Program-made: the position numbers and the translations under genes
The notes under the pieces: generated by a model
Database searches by the model: none
The model's input: only the letters and a program-made list of their open reading frames with translations
Told to the model about the DNA's origin: nothing
Origin: Polaribacter dokdonensis
Lineage (GTDB): Bacteria; Bacteroidota; Bacteroidia; Flavobacteriales; Flavobacteriaceae
Direction of reading: 5' to 3'
Assembly: GCF_024362345.1 (NCBI RefSeq)
Contig: NZ_CP101505.1
Location: forward strand, 2,873,501 to 2,937,500
Length of the DNA stretch: 64,000 nt
Part shown: positions 25,252-29,228 of the stretch, piece by piece
Layout of the letters: every line of letters starts with the position of its first letter
Position numbering within the stretch: position 1 is the first letter of the stretch

Positions 25252-27369
25252 ATGGCTAGAGATTTAAAATATACAAGAAATATTGGTATTGCAGCACACA
25301 TTGATGCTGGTAAGACAACAACTACAGAGCGTGTATTGTATTATACAGGGGTTTCTCATAAGATTGGAGAAGTTCATGATGGTGCAGCTACTATGGACTG
25401 GATGGAGCAAGAGCAAGAAAGAGGTATTACAATTACTTCTGCTGCTACAACTTGTACTTGGCAGTTTCCATTAGAAAACGCTGAGCCAACACCAGAAACA
25501 AAAGGATATCATTTTAATATTATTGATACTCCTGGTCACGTAGATTTTACTGTTGAGGTAAATAGATCATTACGTGTATTAGATGGTTTGGTTTTCTTGT
25601 TTTCTGCTGTTGATGGTGTAGAGCCGCAATCAGAAACAAACTGGAGATTAGCTGATAACTATAAAGTTCCAAGAATTGGGTTCGTTAACAAAATGGATCG
25701 ACAAGGTTCTGACTTTTTAGGTGTTTGTCAGCAAGTAAAAGATATGTTAAAATCTAATGCTGTACCAATCGTTTTAAACATTGGTGAAGAGGATGATTTT
25801 AAAGGAATTATTGATTTAGTAAAAAATCGTGCTATTGTATGGCATGATCATACTCAAGGAGCAACTTTCGATGTTATCGAAATTCCTGAGGAGTTAAAAG
25901 CTGAAGCAAAAAAATATAGAGCTTTATTAATTGAAGAAGTAGCAAGTTACGATGAGAACTTACTAGAAAAATTCATGGAGGATGAAGATTCTATTACAGA
26001 AGAAGAAGTGCATGCTGCATTAAGAGCTGCTGTTATGGATATGGCTATCATACCTATGATTTGTGGTTCAGCATTCAAAAATAAAGGTGTTCAGTTCTTA
26101 TTAGATGCTGTTTGTCGTTATTTACCTTCTCCTACAGATAAAGAAGGTATTGTGGGTGTTAACCCAGATACAGATGAGCAAGAATTACGTAAGCCAGATG
26201 TAAAAGAGCCTTTTGCTGCTTTAGCATTTAAGATTGCTACAGATCCTTTTGTAGGTCGTTTAGCATTTTTTAGAGCTTATTCAGGTCGTTTAGATGCTGG
26301 TTCTTATGTTTTAAATAACAGATCTAACAAGAAAGAGCGTATTTCACGTATTTATCAAATGCATGCTAATAAGCAAAATGCAATTGACTTTATTGAGGCT
26401 GGAGATATTGGTGCTGCTGTAGGTTTTAAATCTATTAAAACAGGAGATACTTTATCTGATGAAAAGCATCCTATTGTTTTAGAATCTATGGATTTTCCAG
26501 ATCCAGTAATAGGTATCGCTGTTGAGCCAAAAACTAAAGCGGACGTGGATAAGTTAGGTATTGGTTTAGGTAAATTAGCAGAAGAAGATCCTACGTTTAC
26601 AGTAAGAACAGATGAAGCTTCAGGTCAGACAATTATTTCTGGTATGGGTGAATTACACTTAGACGTAATTGTAGATCGTTTAAAGCGTGAATTTAAGGTT
26701 GAAGTTAATCAAGGACAACCACAAGTAGAGTATAAAGAAGCTATTACAGCATCTGCAGATCACAGAGAGGTTTATAAAAAACAATCTGGAGGACGTGGAA
26801 AATTTGCTGATATCGTATTTACTATGGAGCCTGCAGATGAAGGTGTTCAAGGATTACAGTTTGAGTCTATTATTAAAGGTGGTAACGTTCCTAAAGAATT
26901 TGTTCCTTCTGTAGAAAAAGGATTCAAAGAAGCTATGAGAAATGGTCCTTTAGCTGGTTATGAGATGGACTCTATGAAGGTTACTTTAAAGGATGGATCA
27001 TTCCATGCAGTGGATTCAGATCAACTATCTTTTGAGTTAGCTGCAAAATTAGGATTTAAAGCTGCTGCAAAAGCTGCAAAAGCGAAAATCATGGAGCCGT
27101 TAATGAAGTTAGAAGTATTAACTCCAGAGGAAAACATGGGAGATATTGTTGGTGATCTTAACAGAAGAAGAGGTCAAGTAAATGATATGTCAGATAGAGC
27201 TGGTGCTAAAGTTGTAAAAGCTGTAGTTCCATTATCAGAAATGTTTGGTTATGTTACTGCTTTAAGAACAATGTCTTCAGGTAGAGCAACATCAACAATG
27301 GAATTTTCTCACTATGCAGAAACTCCTTCTAATATTTCAGAAGAAGTAATAGCTGCTGCTAAAGGATAA
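25252..27369 (+). CDS. fusA: Elongation factor G
   Basis: Translocation GTPase, 705 residues. G1 is AHIDAGKTT near 15-23, G2 the RGITI switch, G3 DTPGH and G4 NKMDR; domain IV and the C-terminal domain V ([17 protein letters not shown]) are complete. It is flanked by rpsG and rpsJ in one operon. A single copy is seen in this window. Confidence 0.99.
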
Positions 27370-27387
27370 TCTACTAAAATAAATAAG

Positions 27388-27693
27388 ATGAGTCAAAAAA
27401 TTAGAATAAAATTAAAGTCTTACGATTATAATTTGGTAGATAAATCTGCTGAAAAAATTGTAAAGACTGTTAAAAGTACTGGTGCTATTGTTAATGGTCC
27501 AATACCTTTACCAACACATAAAAAGATTTTTACGGTTTTACGTTCACCTCACGTGAATAAAAAATCTAGAGAGCAATTTCAATTAGCTGCTTACAAAAGA
27601 TTATTAGACATTTATAGTTCTTCTTCGAAAACTATTGATGCTTTAATGAAGCTTGAGTTACCAAGTGGTGTTGAAGTTGAAATCAAAGTATAA
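27388..27693 (+). CDS. rpsJ: 30S ribosomal protein S10
   Basis: 101 residues, with the conserved [20 protein letters not shown] loop. It also serves as NusE in transcription antitermination. Here it ends the str operon: a strong terminator follows and rplC has its own promoter, so S10 is transcriptionally separated from the rest of the 'S10 operon'. Confidence 0.99.
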
Positions 27694-27703
27694 GTAACGT
27701 TTT

Positions 27704-27745
27704 AAAACTTTTGATTTAACAATTTTGTTAAATCAAAAGTTTTTT
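27704..27745 (+). terminator. Terminator of the str operon
   Basis: A perfect 18-bp stem (arms 27704-27721 and 27726-27743; the first reads AAAACTTTTGATTTAACA) with an ATTT loop, 10 nt after the rpsJ stop. The 3' arm ends in a T-run that merges with the -7 box of the next operon. Confidence 0.92.
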
Positions 27746-27754
27746 ATACTTTTG
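27723..27754 (+). promoter_or_regulatory. Promoter of the rplC (S10/spc) operon
   Basis: TTTTG at 27723-27727 (within the terminator loop), a 19-nt spacer and a perfect TACTTTTG -7 box at 27747-27754. The -33 element therefore overlaps the terminator hairpin of the upstream operon. Confidence 0.85.
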
Positions 27755-27981
27755 CAACCCGAAATAGAGTAGGGTAAACAATTTTTTACTTTTTTAGAGG
27801 TAAAAAGTTACATGTCCAGAGCGTTTCGCAAAGGAAAAACGGAAAAAACAAAATCAGCGTTGAATTTGTTTTGGCGCTTTTTTTTTGTGTGAATGTTAAG
27901 GATAACAAGAAACATTTGTTTCAAACAATTAATAGAAATAGACGCGCTGGAAAATGATCTATCGTCTTAAATTTAAAATTA
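27755..27981 (+). promoter_or_regulatory. Structured 5' leader of the rplC operon
   Basis: About 220 nt of untranslated leader. I see CGTTT/AAACG arms near 27821-27840, a GC-rich stem AGCGTT/GGCGCT (27856-27861 with 27873-27878) followed by nine T, and AAAACAAA/TTTGTTTT (27845-27852 with 27865-27872). The last two interleave as an H-type pseudoknot. Near the start codon, AGACG and CGTCT can also pair. It may be an autoregulatory leader; L4, encoded second in this operon, is the known regulator in E. coli. The T-run also allows an attenuator. No RNA family is recognised by eye. Confidence 0.6.
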
Positions 27982-28599
27982 ATGTCTGGGTTAATAGGTA
28001 GAAAAATTGGAATGACCAGCTTATTTGATGAAAATGGGAAGAATATTCCTTGTACAGTAATCGAAGCAGGTCCTTGTGTTGTTACCCAAGTCAGAACCGA
28101 AGAGGTTGACGGATACAATGCGTTACAACTTGGTTTCGATGACAAAAAAGCAAAGAGTTCTAACAAAGCGTTAGACGGTCACTTTAAGAAAGCTGGCACC
28201 ACTGCTAAGAAAAAAGTTGTTGAATTCCAAGGGTTTGAAGAAGAGTATAAATTGGGAGATGCCATTACTGTAGAGCATTTTACAGAAGGTGAGTTCGTAG
28301 ATATTTCTGGAACTTCTAAAGGTAAAGGTTTTCAGGGTGTTGTTAAGCGTCATGGTTTCGCGGGTGTAGGTCAAGCTACTCACGGTCAGCATAACCGTTT
28401 AAGAGCTCCAGGTTCTATTGGTGCTGCATCTTATCCTGCAAGAGTATTCAAAGGAATGCGTATGGCAGGTAGAATGGGAGGAGAGAAAGTGAAAGTACAA
28501 AACTTAAAAGTGTTAAAAGTAGTTGCTGAAAAGAACTTACTAGTTGTTAAGGGAGCAATACCTGGACATAAAAACGCTTTTGTAACTATTCAGAAATAA
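27982..28599 (+). CDS. rplC: 50S ribosomal protein L3
   Basis: 205 residues, near the peptidyl-transferase centre. It starts [15 protein letters not shown] and keeps the conserved GHQ-region equivalent, here [16 protein letters not shown]. First gene of the S10/spc transcript behind a long structured leader. Its stop overlaps the ATG of rplD by one base. Confidence 0.99.
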
Positions 28600-29228
28600 T
28601 GAAAGTAGCAGTTTTAGATATTACAGGAAAAGATACAGGTAGAAAGGTTGAGCTTTCTAAAGATGTATTTGGTGTAGAGCCTAATGATCATGCAATTTAT
28701 TTAGATGTGAAACAATACTTAGCTAATCAGCGTCAAGGTACTCATAAGTCTAAAGAGAGAGCAGAGATTGTAGGTTCAACTAGAAAGATAAAAAAACAAA
28801 AGGGTACAGGTACTGCTAGAGCAGGGTCCATTAAGTCTGGTGTTTTTAGAGGTGGAGGACGTATGTTCGGACCTAGACCTAGAAACTATTCTTTCAAGTT
28901 AAATAAGAACTTAAAGCGTTTGGCGAGAAAGTCAGCTTTAAGTATTCAGGCAAATGATAAGAATTTAGTAGTTATAGAAGATTTTAATTTTGAAACTCCA
29001 AAGACAAAGAACTTTGTAGATGTGTTAAAGTCTTTAGAGCTTGATACTAAGAAGTCATTATTTGTTTTAGATGGTGAAAATTCAAATGTTTATTTGTCTT
29101 CACGTAATATAAAAAATTCTAAGGTAATTAAGGCTTCAGAAATTTATACTTATGGTGTTTTAAATGCTAATAAGATAGTAATAACAGAAGGTTCTTTAGA
29201 AGGAATTAATTCAAATTTAAGCAAATAG
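28599..29228 (+). CDS. rplD: 50S ribosomal protein L4
   Basis: 209 residues. The globular domain plus the extended loop [19 protein letters not shown] that lines the exit tunnel, where macrolide-resistance changes map, are intact. In Gammaproteobacteria L4 represses its own operon through the leader; whether that holds here is inference. It starts inside the rplC stop codon (TAATG), indicating coupling. Confidence 0.99.

Follow-up and report, generated by a model that had tools for sequence, protein, structure and literature searches.

The locus lies in Polaribacter dokdonensis, whose genome is a single contig of 3.09 Mb and which has Polaribacter and Tenacibaculum among its nearest relatives in an rplC search. 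The window, by which we mean the whole 64,000-nucleotide stretch of DNA that was analyzed, carries in its ORF list the gene order rpsL-rpsG-fusA-rpsJ, a 288-base gap, rplC-rplD-rplW-rplB, and further S10/spc genes. These and their neighbors we take to be the genes so named from recognition of the ORF translations. The gap holds an inverted repeat with a T run, an overlapping Bacteroidetes-type promoter, and a leader (Table 1). With the window's rpsJ translation as tblastn query, rpsJ was found 5′ of rplC in the 36 strong element matches described below and in most of 80 relatives; it was not found in the fetched stretch of the Pedobacter and Sphingobacterium loci or of locus L082.

A terminator of the str cluster with a perfect stem had been proposed from the sequence of the window and is confirmed here. 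The repeat has arms at 27704–27722 and 27725–27743 with 18 counted pairs, and between 27380 and 28000 it is one of two terminator-like sites, the other being the base of hairpin S2, against 0.2 (sd 0.5) in shuffles. The claim that a −33 element sits within this terminator also holds on reading the sequence, since TTTTG falls at the junction of loop and 3′ arm. Together with the −7 box it makes a Bacteroidetes-type promoter readable between rpsJ and the leader, and transcription would be expected to start at about 27759–27760, given that 4–5 nt separate a −7 box from its start site (PMC6847099). Among 20 same-genus loci read by eye, the window's own copy included, 14 have TTTTG in the terminator loop, two have T only in the loop, and four show no overlapping terminator in the 130 nt shown. 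At the expected start, ACCC...GGGU at 27757–27775 could form a 5′-end hairpin if transcription began early enough; sister species have a ACACCGAAA...UUUCGGAGUGU-type repeat instead.

Table 1. Features at the junction of rpsJ and rplC (window coordinates)
Feature	Position	Strand	Evidence
rpsJ (S10), last gene of the rpsL-rpsG-fusA-rpsJ cluster	27388..27693	+	ORF, tblastn
Intrinsic terminator of the rpsL-rpsJ cluster, perfect 18–19 bp stem	27704..27743	+	Inverted repeat; 16/20 genus loci by eye
Predicted promoter: −33-like TTTTG 27723–27727, 19-nt spacer, −7 TACTTTTG 27747–27754	27723..27754	+	Sequence reading
P1 5′ flank ACAUGUC, near-invariant	27810..27816	+	Alignment
P1 hairpin, outer UCC/GGA and inner GC/GC pairs, purine-rich middle	27815..27835	+	Covariation
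Conserved linker AAAAACGG	27835..27842	+	Invariant and nearly invariant alignment columns
S1, antiterminator-like hairpin: 27845–27852/27865–27872, tip 27854–27856/27861–27863	27845..27872	+	Folding, covariation
S2, terminator-like hairpin: 27856–27864/27870–27878, loop 27865–27869	27856..27878	+	Terminator scan, covariation
U tract directly 3′ of S2, eight U	27879..27886	+	Sequence
P3 hairpin GAAAC/GUUUC (GAAAC-N4-GUUUC), window's genus	27909..27922	+	Seen in genus copies
P4 hairpin UAGACGCGCUGGA...AUCUAUCGUCUUA, just before the rplC start, window's genus	27939..27969	+	Pattern search
rplC (L3), first of the putatively controlled run rplC-rplD-rplW-rplB-rpsS-rplV-rpsC...	27982..28599	+	ORF

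The leader contains a conserved RNA of ∼75 nt, in which a hairpin, P1, with near-invariant flanks is followed by two alternative hairpins, S1 and S2. In relatives the common pattern is CAUGUCC or a close variant, the short P1 hairpin, GGAAAAACGG, and two overlapping inverted repeats. AUGUC is invariant in all 42 sequences of our alignment, and its AUG is absent in one later, divergent copy (L137). A typical S1 reads AAAAUAC-a-UUCA-GGGU-UGAA-GUAUUUU, and a typical S2 reads CAGGGUUGAA-loop-UUYRACCCUG followed by U. In the window, S2 has 9 bp, three of them G-U pairs; like an intrinsic terminator, it contains G and C and runs straight into a U tract. The sequence-only reading had drawn two interleaving pairings here, 27845–27852 with 27865–27872 and 27856–27861 with 27873–27878, and both are present. 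The first stands as drawn once the tip that completes S1 is added; the second exists as the base of the longer hairpin S2. The nine T that were said to follow do form a run at 27878–27886, of which the first base is paired in S2 and eight are left as the tract. In this species AGCGUU occurs twice, at 27820–27825 in P1 and at 27856–27861 in the 5′ arm of S2, so that the 3′ arm of S2 is able to pair with P1; the predicted fold of the window element cut after a few U has this pairing.

Our starting set comprised 81 rplC upstream regions, from 80 relatives and the window, and 42 of them carry the element pattern; regions without it included those of Flavobacterium, Sphingobacteriales, and Bacteroidales. 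At E ≤ 0.01, a covariance model built from the 42 pattern-bearing sequences has matches in 317 of the 397 Flavobacteriaceae genomes sampled and none in the other 80. By our count from the list, 312 genomes match at E ≤ 5.1e-9 once five weak matches are set aside. Among 40 genomes searched again, the best match reached at least 52.7 bits in 35; no other match exceeded 34.9 bits, and this holds for the top match in each of the five weak genomes too. Strong matches were confined to Flavobacteriaceae both in a class draw of 345 genomes (6 matches) and in an order draw of 246 (17 matches). Outside the family none exceeded 39 bits in these draws, under search filters that can lose weak matches; seven matches in the order draw scored 30–38 bits. 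By eye, the six class-level matches of 32–39 bits read as ordinary terminators near other genes, and so do L119 and L120, which are weak matches from the genome of the window itself. Genus g128 had no match among those listed for the order draw.

The position of the element is also consistent, and lies 5′ of r-protein genes as expected of an r-protein leader (r-leader). All 36 strong matches first fetched, the window's own included, sit between rpsJ and rplC, and rplC was found in each of 100 matching loci fetched later; taken together, all 135 matching loci from other genomes have rplC just 3′ of the element. Because most loci were chosen for their match to the model, presence of the element in them is no independent evidence; pairing and gene context are. 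The resulting 177 loci are not strictly nonredundant, since some come from the same or sister species, and 176 elements were parsed and counted (L171 could not be parsed). Their distance from the rpsJ stop varies: 7–11 nt in 23 of 176 loci, <40 nt in 120, and at least 60 nt in 44, the window among the last. An exact TAnnTTTG box lies between rpsJ and the element in 16 of 176, in a scan that began 20 nt inside rpsJ and misses imperfect boxes or promoters further upstream. An interposed terminator and promoter are seen in the window's genus and, from the boxes listed, apparently in a few others, such as L038. Judged by these boxes, the element across the family does not depend on a promoter of the window's type, and the short spacings together with the rarity of the box make read-through from upstream genes probable in most relatives. 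In Flavobacterium and Avrilella loci (L017, L035, L041, L044, L047–L052, L055, L058, L059) the element is absent and other leader sequences precede rplC; the rplC promoter of Flavobacterium hibernum serves as a tool promoter (PMC6847099).

The by-eye pairings had been left to be judged by whether they covary or drift in relatives. Both helices covary, as seen in the alignment, in a permutation test, and on an rplC tree, giving the leader the covariation-backed RNA structure expected of an r-leader. In the 42-sequence alignment (A1), 92.6% of S2 cells are paired and seven of its 10 pairs change on both sides. For P1, 71.1% of cells are paired and both partners change in five of eight pairs. Its outer and inner pairs persist; in its purine-rich middle, two pairs are nonstandard in 37 and 35 of the 42 sequences, and a minority of sequences have standard pairs there instead. 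In slid controls, the paired share of P1 and S2 combined falls from 83.1% to 27.6–52.3%. On the rplC tree of 157 sequences, of which 155 were counted, S2 shows 61 compensatory and 91 one-sided events against seven losses. In the same analysis 1528 of 1537 S2 cells are paired, a figure that is partly so by construction because hairpins parsed sequence by sequence supplied the partners.

For S1, the register is chosen for each sequence, which inflates a parsimony count of the outer helix; its 116 compensatory events were therefore set aside in favor of permutation. The outer arms pair with a score of 12.08 within their own sequence; swapping arms among sequences lowers the mean to 8.15 (sd 0.44), and the observed score was not reached in any of 2000 permutations. 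This test used 157 of 176 elements (19 left out) with 82 distinct arm combinations; permuted pairs also chose their register, and relatedness among sequences remains in the statistic. For ten of the 157 sequences, the allowed geometry yielded no outer helix with three pairs. Exchanged arms include AAAAUAC/GUAUUUU, AAAACAAA/UUUGUUUU, AAAAUUAA/UUAAUUUU, and AACAC/GUGUU; the outer pairs covary as G-C or C-G in L006, L057, and L097, and grouping the elements by architecture displays exchanged inner S1 letters. At the tip of S1, losses (16) exceed compensations (8) on the tree.

The two hairpins have several bases in common, in particular UGAA and a U stretch. In 165 of 175 elements the overlap of S1 and S2 amounts to four bases or more, and the median is nine (the mis-parsed L213 left out); this count does not speak to the other 10. 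Because of this sharing, the hairpins are mutually exclusive alternatives, like an antiterminator and a terminator. In structure, the leader has what is expected of an attenuator: an exclusive alternative hairpin that overlaps the terminator-like one and is conserved by compensation.

Folding predictions follow the same pattern. S1 hairpins exceed dinucleotide-shuffled sequences in stability, with a mean z of −3.05, and mean energies are −13.8 kcal/mol for S2 versus −5.6 kcal/mol for S1. Both figures come from 153 of 176 sequences, a set in which elements with weak U tracts are underrepresented because the other 23 were dropped for short stems or for having no TTT tail. When the RNA is cut before the last arm, S1 is predicted in 171 of 176 elements; in the complete RNA, S2 is predicted in 136 and missing from 40, and S1 is kept in 43. 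This is the order of events expected if an antiterminator formed first and a terminator could then take its place. The window itself is borderline, at −7.8 kcal/mol for S2 versus −6.1 for S1, and its predicted minimum-energy fold retains S1 even after the U tract has been added. In 136 of 176 elements, five or more consecutive T occur within 10 nt 3′ of the final G or C of S2. The remaining 40, many with GAATTTTAA or GAAUUUUAA, have a run of at most four, a few of them through parse errors (L145, L146, and L153, for example). With so short a run, termination would be weak or factor-dependent, and these elements are a real weakness of the terminator reading.

We propose that the element probably acts in cis as a transcription attenuator, placed where the str cluster (rpsL-rpsG-fusA-rpsJ) meets the S10 cluster (rplC and the genes after it). 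In this model P1 would fold first during transcription and S1 second; once the last arm was made, S2 and the U tract would displace S1, and transcription would stop before rplC. From the folding and terminator predictions, S2 is likely to be a stop signal for transcription, and therefore the RNA probably controls the output of a large block of r-protein genes. The element would in this way separate control of the S10 cluster from that of rpsJ and the str genes. The sequence-only reading had offered an autoregulatory RNA or an attenuator built on a pseudoknot. The attenuator branch is the better supported, by alternative folds that both covary; the pseudoknot part does not stand.

What the attenuator might sense can be approached by analogy. 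Negative feedback by a protein encoded in the operon is the usual logic of r-leaders, and the element here probably senses an r-protein such as L4, our first candidate among the products of the operon. The near-invariant bases around P1 would be a natural site for the putative ligand, which by binding P1 and its flanks could shift the balance between S1 and S2. If recognition of the P1 flank blocked the 5′ arm of S1, S2 would form, excess ligand would favor S2, and the operon would be repressed, which is the right sign for feedback. S10 is, by position alone, a less likely ligand because rpsJ lies upstream and an attenuator at this site would control rplC onwards rather than rpsJ. Resemblance to the protein's rRNA site is frequent in r-leaders and not obligatory. 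When our model was run with filters off against the 5.8-kb stretch that holds the genome's own 23S gene, a coarse comparison with a stretch that may not take in all rRNA, the best match was 6.2 bits (E 3.2), so that mimicry indicates no ligand. An exact search found none of the conserved words of the element in that stretch; the P4 word GCGCTG occurs there once, without the rest of the hairpin sequence. Nor was an anti-antiterminator complementary to the 5′ arm of S1 noticed, in inspection that was not systematic. There is an unlikely but serious prospect that the element is a family-wide switch, its middle strand doubly covarying because antiterminator and terminator draw on the same bases, that separates the S10 cluster from the str cluster on a cue other than classical L4 feedback; examples would be the state of assembly, a nucleotide, or the traffic of ribosomes at the rpsJ stop.

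The pseudoknot deserves separate comment because its H-type arm order, a-b-a′-b′, is indeed present and both of its helices covary. S1 and S2 together, recognized by an r-protein or by the ribosome, could in principle form such a fold, which we consider very unlikely. Coexistence of the two helices is contradicted in most elements by the bases that they share. In the window, the 3′ arm of S1 runs directly into the 3′ arm of the second pairing as first drawn: no base lies between 27872 and 27873 and yet an 8-bp helix would have to be crossed, so that S1 at full length cannot take part in a classical H-type pseudoknot there. S1 is not simply shortened to make room either, since its outer pairs covary. 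What looks like a pseudoknot by eye is here two alternative folds. Another reading starts from the open frame at 27812–27892, 26 codons and a stop in the window, which begins at the conserved AUG and could encode a leader peptide that acts by translational attenuation. The third codon is UGA or UAA in many relatives (AUG UCC UGA or UAA), and the AUG itself is missing in L137; these immediate stops refute a leader peptide as a general mechanism and leave the idea scarcely conceivable for the element.

Two simpler or differently wired devices compete more closely with the attenuator. S2 could be a partial terminator, or a 3′-end stabilizing or processing hairpin, that fixes the ratio of the rpsL-rpsJ to the rplC transcripts, with P1 and S1 affecting only timing and no ligand involved. 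The short T runs of 40 elements and the likely read-through from upstream across most loci, where the rpsJ stop is near, agree with this, but a pure timing device would not need the near-invariant sequence flanking P1, and S1 would hardly be kept by compensatory change; we regard it as unlikely. A small-molecule or ribosome-sensing switch, responding to a ppGpp-like signal or to ribosomes that end at the rpsJ stop rather than to an r-protein, would suit the closeness of the element to that stop and the lack of rRNA mimicry in the genome's own 23S stretch. Translation of rpsJ cannot be required everywhere, however, because the spacing is long in a quarter of the loci (44/176) and the window has a terminator and a promoter in between, which makes such a switch distinctly improbable.

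The element, as we class it, is a new case of an r-protein operon attenuator, with r-protein binding putative. It matches no Rfam 15 family above threshold. A search of window positions 26500–29000 gave four matches at E ≤ 1, all far below gathering scores, and a search of 18 relatives' loci, 13 of them with the element, gave one at E ≤ 0.5, below its gathering score and in a locus without the element. In Escherichia coli, rpsJ is the first gene of the S10 operon. The leader of that operon is regulated by L4, which is thought to stabilize a paused complex, and contains a Rho-independent site (PMC10931766). The two leaders are alike in belonging to an operon that encodes L3 and L4 and in having a terminator-like site; they are set apart, by published description only, in that the E. 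coli leader precedes rpsJ whereas the element follows rpsJ and has a covarying antiterminator-like alternative. The Bacillus subtilis L20 (infC-rpmI-rplT) and L10(L12)4 (rplJL) leaders are r-protein-controlled attenuators with alternative terminator and antiterminator (PMC10931766). They too have two exclusive structures, one of them terminator-like, 5′ of r-protein genes, as far as that account describes them; they serve other operons, whereas the element lacks an Rfam leader match, shows no noticed anti-antiterminator, and has a putative ligand only.

Closer in phylogeny are the predicted r-leaders of Flavobacteria and Bacteroidia for S4, S15, S16, and L13, of which Table 1 of that survey gives those for S4, S15, and S16 under Flavobacteria (Eckert and Weinberg 2020, PMC7247131). 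In outline they resemble the element, being lineage-specific covarying structures 5′ of r-protein genes in the same phylum. An rplC leader of this phylum is absent among the 20 motifs in Table 1 of this main r-leader survey, whose L4 motif is archaeal, from Archaeoglobi (PMC7247131). The sections consulted of a 2010 survey (PMC2864571) and of a 2024 survey do not mention one either; our literature search was limited, and earlier publication is possible. One 2010 candidate, the GUCCY-hairpin of Bacteroidetes and Proteobacteria, has no Rfam accession in the table of that survey (PMC2864571); its name recalls the conserved GUCC of P1 and its phylum fits, a comparison by name and phylum alone. Most initiation in Bacteroidota occurs without Shine-Dalgarno pairing (PMC6847099, PMC10931766), which makes r-protein balancing in this phylum an interesting question. 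A covarying candidate attenuator before one of the largest r-protein clusters, present in 312 of 397 genomes, offers a concrete and testable regulatory site, and it would add an RNA family unmatched by Rfam 15.

Further hairpins lie between the element and rplC. In the window's genus, the P4 pattern occurs in 21 of 36 genomes, and it was met once in a genome from another family of the order. In all 20 fetched copies, including the window's, P4 ends 13–15 nt before the rplC start codon, a position that suggests an additional, possibly translational, control site. The two genus-specific hairpins, P3 and P4, could be a translational operator just upstream of the rplC start codon. Seven Pedobacter and Sphingobacterium loci have another hairpin 5′ of rplC, GAAGCCCUACUGCUUCGAUGG, which is conserved exactly among them (L067, L068, L070, L074, L076, L077, L081). 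It gave no Rfam match in the two loci scanned. Ending 19–25 bases before rplC, it is a second candidate leader for the rplC operon.
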